From Paenisporosarcina sp. HGH0030 (GTDB lineage: Bacteria; Bacillota; Bacilli; Bacillales_A; Planococcaceae), in contig NZ_KE150421.1 of assembly GCF_000411295.1 (NCBI RefSeq), positions 1,618,835 to 1,682,834 on the forward strand: a DNA stretch of 64,000 bases, written 5' to 3'. A program made the translations under genes and the position numbers. Below, in pieces: positions 15,801-32,489 of the stretch (the first letter of the stretch is position 1; the number at the start of each line of letters is the position of its first letter). Below the pieces are notes generated by a model. It was not told the origin of the DNA. It ran no database searches and worked only from the letters and a program-made list of their open reading frames with translations.

Positions 15801-15832
15801 CTTACGCTAACCTGCTGCGTTAGTTTAACAAG
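15801..15832. repeat. Cassette repeat, partial copy (single hairpin)
   Basis: CTAACCTGCTGCGTTAG with flanking TTTAACAAG is one arm of the repeat described at 27278. The terminator and second hairpin are absent. It sits 3' of the 15890-16315 gene. Confidence 0.55.
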
Positions 15833-15889
15833 AGTTTATTAACAAATCTTGTGTAGCACTTTTTTTAAAAAAATAGTTCGGAAAATAAA

Positions 15890-16315
15890 CTACTTAATAT
15901 TTTTATTACTTTCTAATTGTTTTTGAATACCTGACCTATCAATCTGAATCCAATACTCTGCAATTTTTTCATTTTCTATTTTATATACAGCACTCGCAAT
16001 TTCAATTACTGGCAGACCCGTTGGGGGAAAACCATCGATTTCTCCTACGTGTTTACCTACTTGTTTCCAACGTACATATACTTTATTTCCTTGTACTAAA
16101 AATTCTTGAATTTCTAAAGAAAAATTACCATATGCTTCAATCATTTCTCTTACGTGTTCAGCATAATCTTTAGGTGTCCTCAAAACTGTTTGTTCTACTT
16201 CAGATACAATTTGATGTGCCAATACTTGTTCTGCCATTAATTGATTTGAGTAATCAGGATTATTACCTGAACGTACTTCTTCAAAAAATTCTCTAACAAT
16301 TTGTTCTGGTGTCAT
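15890..16315 (-). CDS. SnoaL-like / NTF2-fold ester cyclase family protein
   Basis: A 141-residue single-domain protein. The start MTPEQIVREFFEEVRSG, the central PKDYAEHVREMIEAYGNFSLEIQEFLVQGNKV (shown here only as the family landmark near 50-80) and KIAEYWIQID near the end match the SnoaL-like polyketide-cyclase/NTF2 fold, a small barrel used by many enzymes and binding proteins. The start has a GGGGG site. It is a lone gene between two cassette repeats, like the members of the 27-31 kb array. The substrate cannot be inferred. Confidence 0.75.
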   Translation of the reverse strand: MTPEQIVREFFEEVRSGNNPDYSNQLMAEQVLAHQIVSEVEQTVLRTPKDYAEHVREMIEAYGNFSLEIQEFLVQGNKVYVRWKQVGKHVGEIDGFPPTGLPVIEIASAVYKIENEKIAEYWIQIDRSGIQKQLESNKNIK

Positions 16316-16376
16316 TTAAAAACCCCCTTGTTAATAAATTCAAAACTAATAATATCATAGGTGATTTTATTCTAAC

Positions 16377-16468
16377 TATTAAACTAGCGAGTGCGTTAGT
16401 TTAACAAGAAAAAAGAGCCGTCTATGCAGCTCATTGATCTTCTACTAACGCACCCGATAGTTTAAGTG
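16377..16468. repeat. Cassette repeat, full copy (divergent sequence)
   Basis: Same layout as the 27278 element: hairpin with GTTAGTTTAACAAG, then A-run and GAGC/GCTC stem, then CTAACGCACCCGATAG. It separates the SnoaL-like gene from the DUF3291 gene. Confidence 0.65.
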
Positions 16469-16596
16469 TAATACTTCACAATTCCCTCCAGAATAAATAA
16501 AAATGGCGAGAAAAATGTCACAGGAAGGTGTATTACTCCTTAACTTCACCATTAATTTAAATGGATAATTTCCCAATTAATAAAGGGTCCCCCCTG

Positions 16597-17061
16597 CTAC
16601 TTAATCAAGAACATCTCCCCTTTTTCATCAAATGCATGCTTAAAATCAAATGCAAAAGGAGTGGGACCATGCTGAATATAATAGTTGTATCTCTTGAATG
16701 CCTCCTCCCATGAGACATCATTAACCTTTTCTGTCCACCAAACTACATAAGAAAGGTGTTTCTTTGGATACGGCTCGATCCATCTGCTTCTATCTCGTAA
16801 TGCTTGCATATGCTGTCCTGAATAGGTAAAGCGATATAAGGATTGAAGGCTTCTCCATACTGTTAGTGTAAGAATAGGAGAACCAATTCCCTTTACGGTT
16901 TCTTCAGGGAAAGGGACTCCTTCAGGTGAAAACGCCTCAATAAGTCCTGACTTAGTTGCCTGACGATATACTTCATTTCCCACTTGAAAAAATTCACGAG
17001 AGGCAGGGTGGTCATTGTGGTGGTTTAGCCTACCAACAGTATAGATTGAAACTAATGCCAT
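16597..17061 (-). CDS. DUF3291 family protein
   Basis: A 154-residue protein beginning MALVSIYTVGRLNHHNDHPA. It contains LTLTVWRSLQSLYRFTYSGQHMQALRDR (family landmark near 85-112) and LSYVVWWTEKVNDVSWEEAFKRY, the pattern of DUF3291 proteins. These are related to antibiotic-biosynthesis-monooxygenase-like ferredoxin folds and often described as monooxygenase-like without a known substrate. It is a single gene flanked by cassette-repeat copies on both sides. The function is unknown. Confidence 0.75.
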   Translation of the reverse strand: MALVSIYTVGRLNHHNDHPASREFFQVGNEVYRQATKSGLIEAFSPEGVPFPEETVKGIGSPILTLTVWRSLQSLYRFTYSGQHMQALRDRSRWIEPYPKKHLSYVVWWTEKVNDVSWEEAFKRYNYYIQHGPTPFAFDFKHAFDEKGEMFLIK

Positions 17062-17118
17062 AAACAGCCCTCCATCTATAGTCTTTTCCTAGATATATTC
17101 AAGTAAAAATGTGAAAAT

Positions 17119-17157
17119 TCCTTCTTCAGCTAACCTGCCTCGTTAGTTGAAGAAGAA
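17119..17157. repeat. Cassette repeat, single hairpin
   Basis: CTTCTTCAGCTAAC pairs with GTTAGTTGAAGAAG around CTGCCTC, a 12-14 bp stem. The terminator and second hairpin are missing. It lies just upstream of the DUF3291 gene. Confidence 0.7.
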
Positions 17158-17247
17158 ATACGATCTGTAACATATCTATTCTATCGCTGAACGAGTGTGC
17201 TGCATGCACTCCTAGTAGACATAACACCCGGATTGGGAAGTATTCGA

Positions 17248-17293
17248 TTTCATTACTCCATAAGAAAAGCTGCCCTTTAAAGGCAGCTGGCTT
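17248..17293. repeat. Short hairpin repeat, copy 2 (partner at 15566)
   Basis: CATTACTCCATAAG followed by AGCTGCC/GGCAGCT, a perfect 7-bp stem around CTTTAAA. Confidence 0.6.
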
Positions 17294-17333
17294 CACATTT
17301 GTATATATACCAACTGACATAATGTTAAATAAA

Positions 17334-17366
17334 AAAATCGTCCGTTCTATCGGACGATTTTTTCTT
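17334..17366 (-). terminator. Terminator of the 17365-17916 lipoprotein gene
   Basis: AAAAATCGTCCG pairs with CGGACGATTTTT around six bases. The T-run is present on both strands; the minus-strand gene stops at its edge. Confidence 0.88.
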
Positions 17367-17916
17367 ATTGTGCTACTTCGCTGGCAATGCTTGATTCTGC
17401 TAAGCCAACTTCTTTAAGTACCTCATTTAATTCAGCTTCAGCCTCTTCAAATTTAGCATTTGCCTCATCTAATACAACGTCACCTTCTGCAGCTAATGCG
17501 TCTGCTTTCATTGTATAAGCTTCTTGCATTTTGTTTAATGCTGAGTCAATTGTTTCTTGGTGATCTTTTAATTCAGCAGGAACTTCTAATTCTTCTACTT
17601 TAACCGCAGTATTTGCAGCAGCTGTTTTTGCAGCATCCCGCATTTTTTTTAGCTCAGCAGCTTCTGGAGGTGCTTCTACATCTACATTTTCAAAAGCATT
17701 TAGATCTGCATCTACAGCATTAATAGATTGAGAGATTGATAAGTAAAACTTCATCATATCTCCAGCAGGGTTCGCTTTTTCTTCAGATGCAGTTTCTTCA
17801 GATTTAGTTCCTACAGTCGTTGTAACTTTTTTCTCTTCTTTGTCTTCTTTGTCTTCAGTACAAGCTGCAAGCACTAAAGAAAGTGAAGCAATAAGCAATA
17901 ATAGTTTTTTCATCAT
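17365..17916 (-). CDS. Hypothetical lipoprotein with helical domain
   Basis: A 183-residue protein starting (M)MKKLLLLIASLSLVLAACTED. The lipobox LAAC places the lipidated cysteine near residue 19-20, so it sits on the outer face of the membrane. A charged linker full of Glu and Lys follows. The rest (about 55-180) is alanine/glutamate-rich and probably all-helical, with a possible coiled coil (FEEAEAELNEVLKEV). The start has a GGAG site and a strong terminator follows. No family is recognised with confidence; a cell-wall binding role is possible. Confidence 0.7.
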   Translation of the reverse strand: MMKKLLLLIASLSLVLAACTEDKEDKEEKKVTTTVGTKSEETASEEKANPAGDMMKFYLSISQSINAVDADLNAFENVDVEAPPEAAELKKMRDAAKTAAANTAVKVEELEVPAELKDHQETIDSALNKMQEAYTMKADALAAEGDVVLDEANAKFEEAEAELNEVLKEVGLAESSIASEVAQ

Positions 17917-18334
17917 TCAATCTCCTTTAATCTTGGGAATATTTAGTTATATTACCACAGATAAACTCCCTTGTAAATGAATTACCAAATAATTCGCCAT
18001 TTAGTAACGTTTTCAAAGATCTTATAAAGACCGATTCAATCACTGAACCGAAGGGTTTTGTTCAGTAAATCAGGAGTTAATGAACACCCTATATTTACAG
18101 TGTTTTGTGAGGTTAATTCTTTTATTAATGTTCAAGAACTCGTTCAATAATCTAAGTTCAGTAACCTATACGACACCTAAGTATAGTTACACGATTAAAT
18201 CTAGGCCATAAGAAAAAACCGCCTTGTAAGGCTGTCGGTTATTCAACTAAAGCGCCCGTTAGTTGAATATGAAAAAAGCAATTTATCACATATTAAATTT
18301 AGGAGTCTTCATTAATCTTTGGAAAAAGTAGTCC
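17917..18334. other. Non-coding interval with one cassette-repeat copy
   Basis: It contains the promoter side of the lipoprotein gene and the repeat at 18207-18271. No gene is seen. Confidence 0.5.
18207..18271. repeat. Cassette repeat, lacking the first hairpin
   Basis: The terminator-like stem AACCGCC/GGCTGTCGGTT is followed by TTCAACTAA...TTAGTTGAA around AGCGCCCG (18242-18267). It is the last copy before the GC-rich operon. Confidence 0.7.
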
Positions 18335-26688: not shown

Positions 26689-26765
26689 TTGTATTCTCAC
26701 AAATTCAAAAAGAAATTCAATGATCCACAATGCAACCTTTTCCCGGAAGGTATTCTACATCTATA

Positions 26766-26930
26766 TTTAGGCAAGTCTCCTGACTTATGAGGTTGGTACG
26801 TTTCTTCCGCCTTCCCAGTTTTTCAACTAGTGGCTCATGGAAGTCACTCCCTCAATTACAGTGGCCGGACCGTCCAGGATTTTAACCTGGTTCCTTTTTA
26901 ATCTTTACCCGCAAGTAAAGAACCAAAATA
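26766..26930 (-). promoter_or_regulatory. Cobalamin riboswitch
   Basis: On the minus strand the conserved pieces occur in order: GGTTAAAATCC, then ACGGTCC, then the B12-box core GCCACTGTAA, then a variable arm, and AGTCAGGAGACTTGCC at the 3' end. Spacing and order fit the adenosylcobalamin-class aptamer. A terminator follows downstream. It should repress the five genes between 26582 and 18653 when the vitamin is plentiful. Confidence 0.93.
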
Positions 26931-27031
26931 TATAACTATTCAATTATTAAATCGCTTTCATTATAGTTTAATGGAAATAGAATTACAATAATTGAATTGG
27001 TAAAGTTTGCCTACAAAAAACGGATGATTTT

Positions 27032-27217
27032 TTATATAGAGATAAAGTGGGGGTTATCGCTCCTACGATTAAAAAGTCTCCAGGACTCATCATCCTCTTC
27101 TGAAGTGTCTGGGAATAATTCCAATATATAACTTTTCGATAAATAGACCTTTAGCCCACCTACTTCATCTGAGTCAATGATTTCAACAATCAAATGTTCT
27201 TTTCCTAAAATATCCTG
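27032..27217 (-). pseudogene. C-terminal fragment of an immunity-type hypothetical protein
   Basis: An open minus-strand stretch of 61 codons ends at TAA 27032 and is bounded upstream by TAG 27218-27220, with no start codon or ribosome binding site. The reading (DILGKEHLIVEIIDSDEVGG ... LELFPD ... ESWRLFN ... PHFI) looks like the end of small acidic proteins common among orphan immunity genes. The N-terminus is missing. It lies next to the riboswitch, at the inner edge of the cassette array. Confidence 0.5.
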
Positions 27218-27277
27218 CTATGCGTTGGTAGTACCATTAGTTCAAAATGCTTCTTATTCATTTGGTAAATTAATCCT

Positions 27278-27370
27278 CTTATTGAACTAACCTGCCTCGT
27301 TTGTTCAATAAGAAAAAGCTGCCTAAGCAGCACGAGGATCTTCAACTAAAGCACCCGTTAGTTGAATAAG
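27278..27370. repeat. Cassette repeat, full reference copy
   Basis: A three-hairpin element. Read on the strand of the genes: hairpin B (TTCAACTAA / TTAGTTGAA around an 8-base CCCG-containing loop), then a stem ending in a T-run (here GCTGC/GCAGC), then hairpin A (TTGAAC...GTTCAATAAG). The middle stem with its T-run is a rho-independent terminator for the gene on the 3' side of the preceding cassette. At least twelve full or partial copies occur from 15.8 to 31.4 kb, all in this orientation. Confidence 0.85.
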
Positions 27371-27372
27371 CT

Positions 27373-27654
27373 CTAACGACTATTTAACAGGTTATTTAAT
27401 TTAATTAATGCTTCATTTATTTCTTTTCTTAGTTGTTGTTCTGATATTTCGAATGGAGTCTCTTGTCCAGGAAGACACTCATGCCAGTAACAATCTGCTG
27501 ATTCAAATACCCCATTCAGAATTTCAAATAAGGGTTTGCCCATTATATCATCCGATCCTTTAAACACTTTAAAATATTGTGTTTGAAATTCATCTGCTGA
27601 CATCTTCTCTTCTAAAAAATCCACCATCAATTTTTTGTATTTGTTTACGTCCAT
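27373..27654 (-). CDS. Colicin-immunity-like small protein
   Basis: A 93-residue acidic protein from ATG 27654 (GGGGA six bases upstream; an in-frame GTG at 27666 overlaps that site). The reading MDVNKYKKLMVDFLEEKMSA, then ILNGVFESADCYWHECL and a helical end resembles the bacterial self-protective colicin-like immunity family, small four-helix proteins that bind and block nuclease toxins. No cognate toxin gene lies nearby. It stands alone between two cassette repeats. Family assignment is moderate. Confidence 0.65.
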   Translation of the reverse strand: MDVNKYKKLMVDFLEEKMSADEFQTQYFKVFKGSDDIMGKPLFEILNGVFESADCYWHECLPGQETPFEISEQQLRKEINEALIKLNNLLNSR

Positions 27655-27710
27655 TTTTCCCCTCACAATAAGTAACTTTTAATTTTCTTCTCTCTACTGC
27701 TTTACTTGCT

Positions 27711-27799
27711 TTATTATTGTACTAAACTGCCCCTTTAGTTCAATAAGAAAAAAGGTTCACTCCTTATTGAAGTAAAGCACTTCGTTAGTTGAATAAGAT
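27711..27799. repeat. Cassette repeat, subtype 2
   Basis: Hairpin A with CTAAACTGCCCCTTTAG, then AAAAAAGG-TTCACT-CCTTATTG as middle stem, then GTAAAGCACTTCGTTAG. The middle segment differs from the reference copy but matches the copy at 30829, so there are at least two subtypes. Confidence 0.8.
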
Positions 27800-28237
27800 T
27801 TATTCGTCCTCAAAGTCATCCTCGGCCTCTTCTTCTGATATTAAAATAATAAATTCTTTCAAATTAAGGGCATATTCTTCAAGTTCTACATCTTCGTGAT
27901 ACCAAATATAAATCTCATTCTCCATTCTTCCGTTATTTACTTTAAAACATAATTTATCTCCCGAACCATCTTCACCGATTGAAATAAGGTCTTTCGACAT
28001 ATCTTCTTCTCTGACTTCGTTGTTTTGTCTAACAACATCATCCCAAGTCTTTCTTGAATTTCTATGGTCTTTGATAGGATAAAGTGTCCATTCACCTATT
28101 TCTGCATTATTGATTAACTTGAAAAGTTCCTTATATTGTTCTGGGAAGACTGCATCTAACTTATTTTCTGTTGCCTTTATGTCTGATTCATCAACGCCTA
28201 TTTTCCTTGTATGTATTAGTCCTATTACATCTTTCAT
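27800..28237 (-). CDS. SMI1/KNR4 family immunity-type protein
   Basis: A 145-residue acidic protein. The landmarks of the SMI1/KNR4 (SUKH) superfamily are present: an N-terminal helix (ESDIKATENKL), FPEQYKELFKLINNAEIGEW near 32-51, and LISIGEDGSGDKLCFKV near 85-101, with a Glu/Asp-rich tail. In bacteria these act mostly as immunity proteins against contact-dependent or secreted nuclease toxins. The start has a GGAGGT site. There is no toxin partner. The stop codon directly abuts a cassette repeat. Confidence 0.85.
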   Translation of the reverse strand: MKDVIGLIHTRKIGVDESDIKATENKLDAVFPEQYKELFKLINNAEIGEWTLYPIKDHRNSRKTWDDVVRQNNEVREEDMSKDLISIGEDGSGDKLCFKVNNGRMENEIYIWYHEDVELEEYALNLKEFIILISEEEAEDDFEDE

Positions 28238-28290
28238 TAAATAACCTCCCTGTTAGTTTTATGAAATATCCAAATTTTATAATGCATGTC

Positions 28291-28380
28291 CTTGTTCAAC
28301 TAACCTGTCCCGTTAGTTCTATAAAAAAAAGGGCTGTTTAAACAGCCCGATGAACTTTAACTAATGCACCCGTTACTTTA
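28291..28380. repeat. Cassette repeat, full copy
   Basis: CTTGTTCAACTAACC begins hairpin A; the middle stem is GGGCTG/CAGCCC followed (minus strand) by eight T; hairpin B has CTAATGCACCCGTTAC with a weakened stem. Confidence 0.85.
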
Positions 28381-28383
28381 AAA

Positions 28384-28461
28384 TCACTTTCCAAGATTTT
28401 GAGGATTCTCAACATATAAGCCTAACACATACCCACAATTCGAGCAGTAAAATGAGGAAAC
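28384..28461 (-). pseudogene. Short zinc-ribbon-like C-terminal fragment
   Basis: Twenty-six codons between TAG 28462-28464 and TGA 28384 read ...FYCSNCGYVLGLYVENPQ..., with a CxxC pair as in zinc ribbons. There is no start codon. It abuts the repeat at 28380. It may be the end of a gene cut by recombination; the evidence is thin because it is so short. Confidence 0.3.
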
Positions 28462-28741
28462 CTATTGCAACAGCTGTGCCGTCTTCTGATTATTAAAAAT
28501 ACCACCTATTTAGAATTCGTTGATCCAGCCATTAGTTACCGAAAAAATCTGTTGTGTATCTCTATTACGAATTTTGTACATGGTCATAAAAATAATCCAT
28601 CCTTTCTCTCTCTCAATAGATGTTTCCATAACTTATCTAATAGTTTTGACTATATAATATTCCTTTTAATTAATACGAGAATGTCTCATAATAGGATTTA
28701 GGGACTATTTAGAAGGAGATAATAAAAAGGAGATTGTGCCT

Positions 28742-28888
28742 ATGAATCTATTTAGTTACGAACTAACAAGATTAGTTGATGATTATTTCAAGTGTGACTG
28801 TCCTAAACTGAAGTCTCAGATACGGGAAGATATTCAATTGTTAACTGATGCTTTTATACAAACCGAAGAAAACAAACAACTTATATAA
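28742..28888 (+). CDS. Small 48-residue protein on the opposite strand
   Basis: The frame from ATG 28742 encodes MNLFSYELTRLVDDYFKCDC and 28 more residues, ending TEENKQLI. AAAAGGAG lies nine bases upstream and a second AAGGAG slightly further out. It is the only plus-strand gene within the 27-31 kb array. Predicted to be helical and acidic, with two close cysteines (CDC). Its end overlaps the convergent fragment at 28881 by eight bases. No family is recognised. Confidence 0.5.
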   Translation: MNLFSYELTRLVDDYFKCDCPKLKSQIREDIQLLTDAFIQTEENKQLI

Positions 28889-29075
28889 TAATCCAGTTTG
28901 CCTCACACTTCCTTTTATGATGACAGTAAGCATTATGGTGAGGGCAAACCTCCCATGTAGAATTATAAGGTTTTGTATAAAAACCTAAATTATCGAATCG
29001 TATTACGCTTACTTCCTTTTCCCCAAGAATTTTAGGTCCTATTTCAACATTTCCTTGTTCAACTAACCTGCCCCG
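28881..29075 (-). pseudogene. 5'-truncated gene fused to a cassette repeat
   Basis: Sixty-four codons run from just after a TAA inside repeat hairpin A (29076-29078) to TAA 28881, with no start codon. The reading (GNVEIGPKILGEKEVSVIRF ... NSTWEVCPHH ... CHHKRKCEAN) has a Cys/His-rich end that could bind zinc. The open frame continues into the repeat itself, so the 5' part of the gene seems to have been exchanged for the repeat. Confidence 0.5.
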
Positions 29076-29150
29076 TTAGTTCAATAAGAAAAAAGAGCTG
29101 CCAAAGCAACTCCACGATCTTTAACTAAAGCACCCGTTAGTTGAATAAGG
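29055..29150. repeat. Cassette repeat, full copy
   Basis: CTTGTTCAACTAACC...CCCGTTAG, then AAAAAAGAGCTGCC/GCAACTC as an imperfect stem, then CTAAAGCACCCGTTAG. Hairpin A overlaps the truncated frame at 28881-29075. Confidence 0.85.
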
Positions 29151-29157
29151 AAAATGT

Positions 29158-29370
29158 TTATCTCTTTCGCTTTTCTAGCCAAGGTTGAATTTTCTTTTCA
29201 ATTAATTTAACTCCAATATAAGCATCCAAGACACCAACTAATAAAACAATAATTATCATACTTATACCAGTAGAATCAGCATTTACAATCGGTTTGAAAA
29301 TTCTAAAAACGACAGATAAAAGAATGGGTGATGTTATTACAACCCAAACAACTACAAAAATGTTAACCAC
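29158..29370 (-). CDS. Small two-span membrane protein
   Basis: A 70-residue protein with two hydrophobic segments (about 3-22 and 36-54) joined by a short loop and a basic tail (EKRKR). The start is preceded by GAGGCG. It lies between two full cassette repeats. Small membrane proteins of this type often serve as bacteriocin immunity proteins, but nothing in the sequence proves that here. Confidence 0.6.
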   Translation of the reverse strand: MVNIFVVVWVVITSPILLSVVFRIFKPIVNADSTGISMIIIVLLVGVLDAYIGVKLIEKKIQPWLEKRKR

Positions 29371-29415
29371 TTCAAACGCCTCTTTTAATATTTATTTTAG
29401 GATAAGATAAAAGTT

Positions 29416-29512
29416 TTCTTTAGCTAACATGCCCCGTTAGATGAAAAAGAAAAAAGGGCTACCAAAGCAGCCCAAAGATTTTTACAAAAGCACCCTTTAG
29501 TTGAATAAGAAA
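29416..29512. repeat. Cassette repeat, full copy
   Basis: TTTAGCTAACATGCCCCG opens hairpin A with a decayed arm; the middle stem is GGGCT/AGCCC with a T-run on the minus strand; the end is GCACCCTTTAGTTGAATAAG. Confidence 0.8.
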
Positions 29513-29521
29513 ATATCCGTC

Positions 29522-30358
29522 TTATTCAATAACCAAAAGCTTAACTTGCTTCCAACCTCTAATAAATATTAGTAGAAGGAAAAATGTAATAGCAAATGTA
29601 ATCGGTCCGTACAATGCTAATTCCCCTATCAATTGTTCTCTCGAGGGCATGGCTAAATCAGTCAAATTTGGAGAATCGAATGTACTCAAAAGAATAGCTA
29701 CAAGGTTTATTACTGCATGTAAAATAATTGGTATCCAAATGTTTTGTTTCAATAGATAAAAATAAGCTAACATACATCCCATAAGAAATGCATGAGCTAT
29801 TCCAATGAAACCACTATGTACTATGGCGAAAATAAGAGAAGAAATTAATATTGCAGTAATAGGCTTAAATCTTTTTGTTAACTTTCTTAGCACTATACCT
29901 CTAAAAAACAGCTCTTCCCATATTGGAGTTAATATCGCTGTAGAGATTATAGGTATTATTAAACTTAATGCACTCCTAGATACGGGTTCAATATTTTGTT
30001 CAGAAAGAAAGTTAATAAAATAATCAAAAAGTGATGGGAATAGAATAACGAACAGCGTAAAACTAATTGCTGCTATGAAAGTAAAATTAATTTTTAAAAT
30101 GATACTCAAAGAGACATATTTTGCCCATTTGATACCTGACATACTCTTTTTAAGAGAAACATTATTAAATTCAATTCTATACTTTTTAATTTGGTAGATG
30201 AAATAAATCAAGATGGCTATTTTTAAAACTAACACAAGTGTTCCGTTTGGATAATTCTTTAACATAAAACCAAAAAAAATTATTCCCGAAATCACTATAG
30301 ACATATAAAAAAGAACAAATGACGTAATATTAAATTTCCGATAATTGTCTACATCCAT
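29522..30358 (-). CDS. CPBP family intramembrane glutamic endopeptidase
   Basis: A 278-residue protein with about seven or eight membrane spans. The CPBP (Abi, CAAX protease and bacteriocin-processing) motifs are visible: EELFFRG near 162-168 (EExxxR), FAIVHSGF near 186 and ILHAVIN near 222-228. Members act as intramembrane proteases, and several protect producing cells from bacteriocins, which fits the immunity theme of the array. The gene is alone between cassette repeats, with GGGGGA upstream of the start. Confidence 0.88.
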   Translation of the reverse strand: MDVDNYRKFNITSFVLFYMSIVISGIIFFGFMLKNYPNGTLVLVLKIAILIYFIYQIKKYRIEFNNVSLKKSMSGIKWAKYVSLSIILKINFTFIAAISFTLFVILFPSLFDYFINFLSEQNIEPVSRSALSLIIPIISTAILTPIWEELFFRGIVLRKLTKRFKPITAILISSLIFAIVHSGFIGIAHAFLMGCMLAYFYLLKQNIWIPIILHAVINLVAILLSTFDSPNLTDLAMPSREQLIGELALYGPITFAITFFLLLIFIRGWKQVKLLVIE

Positions 30359-30400
30359 TTACAAATCTCCCCCACTAAATTTTACCACAAAAAATCTTAT

Positions 30401-30440
30401 CTCTTATTGAACTAACCTGCCCCGTTAGTTGAAGATGAAA
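30401..30440. repeat. Cassette repeat, hairpin A only
   Basis: CTTATTGAACTAACC...CCCGTTAGTTGAAG. The middle terminator and hairpin B are missing. Confidence 0.75.
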
Positions 30441-30453
30441 ACGGAATACTATT

Positions 30454-30768
30454 TCACCAATTTAATATCAACATTAAAATGCTTGAAATGAGGAATACAA
30501 CAAAAAAGGCAAGGATGTAATATGTTTTTCCTTGTTGCTGTGTCTTATGTTTCTTTTCATAATCCTTCCAACCAATAAACACACCCAAAAACATTCCTAT
30601 AATTCCAAAACGTAAAATCGCTATAAAATAATCAAGAAACGGTTTATACGTAATTAGTTGACCACCGTTATCTACCTCTTGAATTTCTTTGTAACTAACA
30701 AATAGAATGGAAACAGCCAATCCGAACACTAACCCATACAGACCTGATTTTCTTAATACTTTTTCCAT
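30454..30768 (-). CDS. Small membrane protein, three hydrophobic segments
   Basis: The 104-residue product starts MEKVLRKSGLYGLVFGLAVS; ATG 30768 follows a GGGAG site, preferred over an in-frame ATG at 30804. Hydrophobic segments lie near 9-26, 47-65 and 84-103, with a KKHKTQQQ cytoplasmic loop. No family is recognised. It is one gene per repeat interval, as elsewhere in the array; possibly a bacteriocin-immunity-type protein. Confidence 0.6.
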   Translation of the reverse strand: MEKVLRKSGLYGLVFGLAVSILFVSYKEIQEVDNGGQLITYKPFLDYFIAILRFGIIGMFLGVFIGWKDYEKKHKTQQQGKTYYILAFFVVFLISSILMLILNW

Positions 30769-30828
30769 AGTTCTCCCATCTCCCTTCTCCACAAAATGTC
30801 CCAATTGTTGAACAAAAGTTATACCACA

Positions 30829-30910
30829 CTCTTCAACTAACCTGCCCCTTTAGTTCAATAAGAAAAAAGGCTTCACCCCTTATTGAAGTAAAGCATCCGT
30901 TAGTTTAAGT
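30829..30910. repeat. Cassette repeat, subtype 2
   Basis: TTCAACTAACC...CCCCTTTAG, then AAAAAAGG-CTTCAC-CCCTTATTG, then GTAAAGCATCCGTTAG. It shares the subtype-2 middle segment with the copy at 27711. Confidence 0.8.
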
Positions 30911-30930
30911 ACAATTTTTCACAAACTTCG

Positions 30931-31251
30931 TTAATTATTTACTATATTTTGTTCCCCAAACTTTTCCTTCGTGTTTATTAAAACTAAAATCATATTTACT
31001 ACACTTAATAATAGAACAACTAAAAACATATAGAAGATAATTGGGTCTCCTCCAGATGGAACTTCATCCGCTATATATCCCGAAATAAACATATTTACTC
31101 CCGATACGATACAAGAAACAAATACCAACATACTGACTGAATATCCACTTATAACGGACTTTTTCAATAATATTAAAATTAATGTAACTAACAAACTAAA
31201 AATAAAAACACCAATTGAAAATTTAAGATAATAAAAAACATCTACTAACAT
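30931..31251 (-). CDS. Small membrane protein, three spans
   Basis: A 106-residue hydrophobic protein with spans near 8-28, 35-57 and 70-93 and a charged C-terminus (INTKEKFGEQN). AAAGGAG lies at a normal distance before the start. No family is recognised. It sits between a subtype-2 and a full repeat copy. Confidence 0.6.
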   Translation of the reverse strand: MLVDVFYYLKFSIGVFIFSLLVTLILILLKKSVISGYSVSMLVFVSCIVSGVNMFISGYIADEVPSGGDPIIFYMFLVVLLLSVVNMILVLINTKEKFGEQNIVNN

Positions 31252-31343
31252 TAATTCAGCTCCTTTTCAAATTTGACGTTTACACATATTACCAAGTTCC
31301 ACAATGATAACCCTACTCATTATTTTCATAATTCCTCGAGCAG

Positions 31344-31439
31344 TTATTCAACTAGACTGCCCCGTTAGTTCAATAAGAAAAAGGGCTGAATAATCAGCCC
31401 GATGATCTTTAACTAAAGCACCAGTTAAATAGTTGAAGT
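31344..31439. repeat. Cassette repeat, full copy (outer end of the array)
   Basis: TTATTCAACTAGACTGCC opens hairpin A; the middle stem is GGGCTG/CAGCCC with five T; hairpin B has a short insertion (CACCAGTTAAATAGTTGAAG). Confidence 0.8.
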
Positions 31440-31495
31440 GTAAAGTCATCAATTTAGTTTATATAGTGGTTCTGCAAGAAAAATATAAAGTTGTT

Positions 31496-31942
31496 TTAAC
31501 TTAAATTATTTCCCCATAAAGCATTTAGAAATACCATATATAACGTGAAGAATCCTGTTAATATAGTGAAGCTTAACGGGATAATTCTTAAGGTTTCGTT
31601 TTTTCTAATTGTTATTATAAAAATAGCAAAAGAAAGGATTGCAACAACATAAAAAAGATAAATCATAAGATAGTGAGTTAGTGGTCCCAAAAATAATCCA
31701 AGTACCGCAAATTGAATTAAAAAGGCTAATATAGAAATAGCAACCCACTTTAGTCTACTTTTGATGGATACTATATTTTTAATTGAGAAAAGTACTGAAA
31801 TTAATACAATTGCAACAAGCAGCCATTCATACAAGTAGAACAATGATTCTTTGTGGACGGCAAAATAATATCCAAGAGCGGATAATGGTATGATTGTGAG
31901 CAGTAAATATCCATTTAGTTTGAGATAAAAGGTTTCGTTAAT
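31496..31942 (-). CDS. Four-span membrane protein, probably with a non-canonical ATT start
   Basis: The best start is ATT at 31942: AAGGAGGAG lies seven bases upstream, an in-frame TAA precedes that site, and no ATG, GTG or TTG lies between them. It gives 148 residues (INETFYLKLNGYLLLTIIPL and onward). The next usable start, TTG 31843, has no ribosome binding site and would delete the first membrane span. Four or five hydrophobic segments are seen. The family is unknown. It is the outermost gene of the array. Confidence 0.55.
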   Translation of the reverse strand: MNETFYLKLNGYLLLTIIPLSALGYYFAVHKESLFYLYEWLLVAIVLISVLFSIKNIVSIKSRLKWVAISILAFLIQFAVLGLFLGPLTHYLMIYLFYVVAILSFAIFIITIRKNETLRIIPLSFTILTGFFTLYMVFLNALWGNNLS

Positions 31943-32489
31943 TTTCTTCTCCTCCTTTTAAATTCCCCATTTACGCCCAGTATTAAGATAACAGTCCAAT
32001 TAATTTTAACAGATAATTCCATAAATCAAAATAATTTCTTTTAGTAAACTGACCTCTAAGCCACCCATGCAGCGAATAATCACTGCACCACAAAGGATGA
32101 AAATTTGTTCTTAATGGGTATAAATCACTACGGATGACGAAGAAGGTCGATGAACTATGGTGCCATAGAGCCCAACCGTTAGTCTGACTCCAACGACCAC
32201 GGTGCATCACAAAACTGTCGCCCCAATATGAGTAGCACTTACGGGATATTTATCCTACTTTAGTTACTGCACCAGACTTGCCTTTATTCTTAGTAGATTG
32301 GAGATACTTCTCGATTTACTTACCAACTCCAAATAATTTCTCTTAAGGCTCAGCTTTTTTCGGGGTCCTTTTGATATGCACTATTATTGATTTTGAGCGT
32401 TTTTTAATTTTCATGTGAGTTCAATAAGTTAAAAAAAGAGCGTTATTCCTACTCGGATCATCGCAACTTTATTTCAAAACTACAATAGA
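31943..32489. other. Interval with no confident gene
   Basis: A 75-codon minus-strand frame (31983-32210) reads unusually rich in Trp and His (RGRWSQTNGWALWHHSSS) and has no ribosome binding site. It may be a decayed gene. The remainder shows no supported feature. The cassette repeats stop before this interval. Confidence 0.3.

Follow-up and report, generated by a model that had tools for sequence, protein, structure and literature searches.

Integrons carry arrays of single-gene cassettes beside a divergent integrase gene. Their integrase, IntI, is defined by an IntI-specific additional domain (PMC9668308), and true integrons are nearly absent from Firmicutes, where IntegronFinder 2.0 found only one complete example, in Limnochorda pilosa (PMC9024848). 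The rAID systems of Bacteroidales, the origin of which is open, hold a predicted tyrosine recombinase, short co-oriented genes, conserved intergenic motifs and SUKH immunity genes (PMC12247911), and in the pdif/dif modules of Acinetobacter the housekeeping XerC/XerD recombinases are paired with dif-like sites (PMC11705084, PMC12907356). Here we describe an array of minus-strand genes separated by copies of one element, at 27.3–31.9 kb of a 64,000-nucleotide window (contig NZ_KE150421.1, positions 1,618,835 to 1,682,834) of Paenisporosarcina sp. HGH0030. We conclude, with a probability of roughly 0.8, that it is one of several cassette arrays belonging to an integron-like gene-shuffling platform of Bacillales with a XerA/D-like integrase. 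No Bacillales system of this kind was found in the literature searched, which covered few subscription journals.

The array contains seven genes, each flanked by copies of the element, of which there are eight between positions 27285 and 31430, seven with both boxes and one an R-only half copy (30410–30430). In each full copy a terminator hairpin is framed by two sites of 20–21 bp, R (AACTAACGGGGCAGGTTAGTT) and L (AACTAACGGGTGCTTTAGTT). On the gene strand L (AACTAACGGGTGCTTTAGTT) comes first, then the hairpin with its T run and then R (CTTATTGAACTAACGGGGCAGGTTAGTT), so that every gene has an R site ahead of it and an L site after it. Both site types have the same 7-bp inverted arms (AACTAAC/GTTAGTT) around a 6–7-bp spacer that differs between them, being GGGTGC in L and GGGGCAG in R. 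The original prediction had a uniform 100-base element, but the copies are about 71–98 bp long and have either a long or a short hairpin. Among 280 non-redundant cassette segments the median length is 579 bp and the gene stop lies a median of 26 bp from the L site; the longest open reading frame (ORF) is on the gene strand in 235 of 273. The sole Rfam match above its gathering score was to the neighbouring cobalamin riboswitch, so the element belongs to no described RNA family.

Six minus-strand terminator-like matches coincide with elements (nine matches in the region against 2.4 in shuffled sequences), and the hairpin would end the transcript of each gene. Hairpins of this kind on the gene strand are also what would be expected if the repeats were merely terminators multiplied in the genome, with RecA-dependent homologous recombination between the copies and the recombinase a passenger in the arrays. 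A terminator, however, has no need of a pair of conserved palindromic boxes, and the arms of the boxes are more constant than the hairpin, of which there are two types. Folded as single strands, some elements (E4 and E8, numbered as below) form a long attC-like hairpin, as a true integron with IntI and single-stranded attC recombination would require, but E1 folds as two separate palindromes.

Comparison with G075, a closed genome of the same species, shows that the genes do not keep a constant order. The window array has both its flanks in position there, at 100 % identity, but its internal block, window 27274–29088 (minus strand), lies at G075 2521837–2523652, approximately 250 kb from those flanks, and in its stead is a 1.1-kb block from that other array. 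Alignment of all four junctions of this reciprocal exchange reveals a 27-bp R identity at one end and a 34-bp L identity at the other, with the hairpins staying put. Over all comparisons of the two strains, homology ends within 12 bp of a site in 42 of 92 cases (46 %; 30 at R and 12 at L), against 3.4 % at random, and 38 of 83 HGH0030 cassettes were not found in G075, the sequence of which was covered in part. An EamA-transporter cassette occupies opposite chromosome arms in the two strains; both of its junctions fall in the R core, it has carried its own odd hairpin along, and at its 5′ junction only the ~21-bp core is common to the two locations. The gene turnover that was predicted is thus apparent, as is the predicted double role of the repeat as shared terminator and probable recombination site, and the view of the repeats as random terminators does not hold. 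A 2.76-kb difference at C1:97612 has an R site at one end only and was not used as a case of relocation.

Tyrosine recombinases usually need matching spacers, so R × R and L × L events should be favoured, and the observed junctions agree with this. Recombination between two R sites would excise or insert a gene with its L site and hairpin as a cassette; R × R together with L × L would swap the gene segments of two arrays and leave the hairpins in place, amounting to recombinase-mediated cassette exchange with heterospecific sites. A cassette closing to a circle would join its right and left outer flanks into one site, and the two flanks should therefore match. At the one clearly variable position, complementarity between the outer flanks of the same cassette is 0.40 against 0.31 expected (0 of 2000 shuffles), a result of modest weight because ten positions were tested. 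Within the same element no raised complementarity was found, so there is no coevolution between its two outer flanks.

As the original prediction held, the window encodes no recombinase, in the sense that a profile search found no tyrosine recombinase of PF00589 (the search extended to neither serine recombinases nor toxins). The linked recombinase that had been expected elsewhere in the genome does exist: a PF00589 search with inspection of flanks located two near-identical genes, at C1:499 kb and C1:588 kb, both more than 1 Mb from the window and both encoding a 279-aa XerA/D-like tyrosine recombinase. Each gene is embedded in an array and, within that, in an element, in the order L box, integrase gene (int) on the opposite strand, R-like site, small gene and R box. 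Residues R138, K162, H228, R231, H254 and Y263 are invariant columns in seven aligned sequences, and we take them to be the catalytic R-K-H-R-H-Y set of the PF00589 family. This dedicated enzyme of ~279 aa probably recombines the L and R sites.

Array-linked int loci were found in Psychrobacillus, Paenisporosarcina, Lysinibacillus, Viridibacillus, Sporosarcina and Solibacillus, with copies also on plasmids, and in the relatives from other genera a hairpin and an L-type box come just behind the int stop. An R-like site of the form CAACTAACCTGC-NN-CGTTAGTAAAA is present ~100 bp upstream of the start of nearly all full-length array integrases; its int-proximal side is conserved and its far side variable among loci. 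Judged from its sequence and position beside the divergent int, it is a candidate insertion site that may act like attI. Of the sites near int, summed over 36 loci, 347 are antiparallel to it and five parallel.

The two HGH0030 int units, 1.27 kb in length, are >99 % alike, with the likeness ending at the outer arms of L and R, and in both of them int occupies the hairpin's place between the two sites. Such units could be autonomous transposon-like elements, of which the short elements would be internally deleted copies resembling miniature inverted-repeat transposable elements (MITEs) that insert behind genes, the array appearance being secondary. We think this unlikely, since it is genes, and not elements alone, that move as blocks between sites, and the attI-like R site has the variable far side expected of a cassette insertion point.

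The solved structures closest to the integrase in sequence are those of XerC-like/XerA and XerD proteins. The integrase scores 224 bits with the XerA-type model NF040815, above its cut-off of 220, but only 95.9 bits, in a split match, with the integron-integrase model TIGR02249, the cut-off of which is 265. The platform is thus integron-like in its working but not an integron by its enzyme. That it is a true integron we consider very improbable indeed on these scores, in spite of a layout of int, attI and cassettes with one gene per cassette, a site behind the gene and leading-strand orientation. In a tree the main-type array-linked integrases group as one clade (98/97), to which neither array-less relatives nor host Xer proteins belong. 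Relatives in Planococcaceae with 60–68 % identity are mostly solitary, with neither arrays nor attI, and are therefore kept separate from the array clade. Among phages only integrases of 34–37 % identity were matched, and viral contigs contained no exact R site. Plasmid CP053689.1, filed as Arthrobacter citreus NEB 577, encodes a Bacillales-type integrase of 68 % identity, and its array has the same arms around other spacers, TGATGC and GCATGC; the organism label looks wrong, the plasmid content indicating that the host is probably a Bacillus relative. We note also that the integrase on a 266-kb plasmid of Sporosarcina psychrophila (NZ_CP146247.1) is near mercury-resistance genes, an IS110 transposase and group II introns.

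The HGH0030 genome has 132 site matches, grouped in arrays, against two for a reversed-pattern control (≤2 mismatches), an excess well above chance level, such counts depending on the consensus used. In G075, with few exceptions, plus-strand sites lie in the half of the chromosome with positive GC skew and minus-strand sites in the other half, so the cassette genes follow replication on the leading-strand side. The search across Planococcaceae that had been proposed found at least one site match in 128 of 261 genomes, with 0–146 per genome and a wide spread even within one genus. The order-level scan is the same sample, and in a scan of 301 genomes of the class only scattered single matches fell outside the family. 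Site number goes together with integrase presence: the median is 25.5 sites in the 38 genomes with an array-type integrase and 0 in the 223 others (p 2e-20), at least five sites are present in 32 of 38 and 26 of 223, respectively, and the association also appears within two genera (g17, p 3e-6; g16, p 0.009), although these p values are uncorrected for phylogeny and the genomes are not independent.

Besides the dependence on consensus and phylogeny, other points weigh against the integron-like platform. The evidence for recombination is wholly comparative, and only one fully clean relocation of a single cassette, with the R core at both ends, was found. In genus g8 integrase and sites are not associated, and G075 has 132 sites with no intact integrase, only one fragment. 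The swap junctions could also reflect homologous recombination through their short identities, and these 27–34 bp, like the many sites of G075, would suit repeats that are terminators only. That explanation is nevertheless rather unlikely in our view, given the association of integrase with site number, an integrase that is itself boxed on both sides, and the single cassette found in opposite chromosome arms with the ~21-bp core alone in common at its 5′ junction.

The original prediction took the array to be one of immunity genes specifically. The 135 non-redundant cassette proteins include nine GNAT, four NUDIX, two FosB/FosM-type and two SUKH proteins and single representatives of CAT, APH, Imm53, beta-lactamase-fold and EamA proteins; there are others too, including transporters and lipoproteins, many belong to no family, and PADLOC matches are few. 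Immunity families (SUKH, Imm53) are thus a minority, and the immunity genes belong to a broader accessory repertoire. A Firmicute counterpart of the rAID clusters, selected mainly to gather orphan immunity genes, would be in keeping with the colicin-immunity and SUKH genes of the window and shares with rAID a tyrosine recombinase, co-oriented short genes and conserved intergenic motifs (PMC12247911). It is quite improbable, however, with cassette content as broad as this, an int divergent to the cassettes and up to 146 sites per genome. In rAID the recombinase lies upstream of co-directional orphan immunity genes, in another phylum; by description, the Bacillales system is set apart by its divergent integrase, general content and integron-like layout.

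With integrons the Bacillales platform shares the divergent integrase gene, a putative insertion site beside it, tandem arrays of single-gene cassettes with the site downstream, a site composed of two simple sites, a content of resistance-type genes and genes without a family, and the occurrence of arrays without an integrase. It differs in an integrase that is XerA/D-like and fails the IntI model, in sites with fixed sequence arms, two heterospecific spacers and a terminator hairpin within, and in arrays scattered over the chromosome. The Firmicute counterpart of integrons that was proposed therefore holds in its integron-like part, but its sites are not clearly attC, its integrase is not IntI and the label of immunity array is too narrow. 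Like the pdif/dif modules, going by description, it has gene modules with a short duplex site for a Xer-type recombinase at either end; unlike them, it has a dedicated enzyme in a clade apart from host Xer, its own sites and large arrays.

A broader proposal, for which we see the case as evenly balanced, is that Planococcaceae and their neighbours possess an independently evolved counterpart of the integron, in which a Xer-type recombinase acts on cassettes that each have two heterospecific duplex sites, and which performs natural recombinase-mediated cassette exchange and has incompatible specificity groups determined by the spacer, as on the NEB 577 plasmid. Should the platform work as proposed, the integron plan would have arisen more than once, and a large soil and plasmid-borne Gram-positive group would have its own cassette platform, with up to ~150 sites per genome and cassettes that hold immunity genes, genes of the FosB, CAT and APH types and many unknowns. 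Nature would also offer a case of cassette exchange by heterospecific sites, and small genes of unknown role could be read, in their hundreds, as mobile cassettes.

The window array, all on the minus strand, begins in the direction of transcription with a small membrane protein gene (31496–31957; ORF listed as 31496–31843, start uncertain). Element E8 (31350–31430; L 31411–31430, hairpin 31383–31400, R 31350–31370) separates it from a gene for a 106-aa membrane protein (30931–31251), which is followed by E7, a short variant (30835–30905; L 30886–30905, hairpin 30870–30894, R 30835–30855), and by a gene for a 116-aa membrane protein with weak similarity to DUF6773 (30454–30804). E6 (30410–30430) is an R box alone, lacking L box and hairpin. 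Beyond it are the gene for a 278-aa CPBP/Rce1-type intramembrane protease (29522–30358; PF02517, E-value 1.9e-23), E5 (29422–29502; L 29483–29502, hairpin 29456–29473, R 29422–29442) and a gene for a 70-aa membrane protein (29158–29370). E4 (29061–29142; L 29123–29142, hairpin 29094–29113, R 29061–29081), the R box of which is the 5′ junction of the swapped segment, precedes a degenerate cassette (28385–29054) that has no intact minus-strand gene, one fragment of it ending in CPHHNAYCHHKRKCEANWII. E3 (28298–28378; L 28359–28378, hairpin 28331–28348, R 28298–28318) leads to the gene for a 145-aa SUKH (SMI1/KNR4) immunity-type protein (27800–28237; PF14567, E-value 2.8e-24; also PF09346), and E2, a short variant (27720–27790; L 27770–27790, R 27720–27740), to that for a 97-aa colicin-immunity-like protein (27373–27666; Colicin_immun, PF09204, E-value 9.9e-19). 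The last element is E1 (27285–27363; L 27344–27363, hairpin 27318–27331, R 27285–27305), with its L box at the 3′ junction of the swapped segment. The layout of one gene to one repeat that had been described thus stands for the seven single genes between eight copies, with the correction that the interval 28385–29054 has a gene fragment only. Pfam supports the Colicin_immun, SUKH and CPBP/Rce1 assignments, while the four small membrane proteins have no Pfam match above the curated cut-off.

A second small cluster of sites is present in the window at 15805–18264, also on the minus strand (R 15805–15825, L 16443–16462, R 17128–17148 and L 18245–18264), and surrounds minus-strand genes at 15890–16315, 16597–17061 and 17365–17916; one of these has a paralogue in a lipoprotein cassette at another place in the genome. 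In G075 two R sites are interrupted, at the same base, by a 1756-bp IS110-type element (C1:2134889–2136644 and C1:3473194–3474949), with a probable third such insertion at about C1:2158011–2159808, recalling the IS1111-attC elements that target the attC sites of integrons. The cobalamin riboswitch that adjoins the array (window 26753–26942, 118 bits) lies ahead of an SLH/DUF4430 gene.

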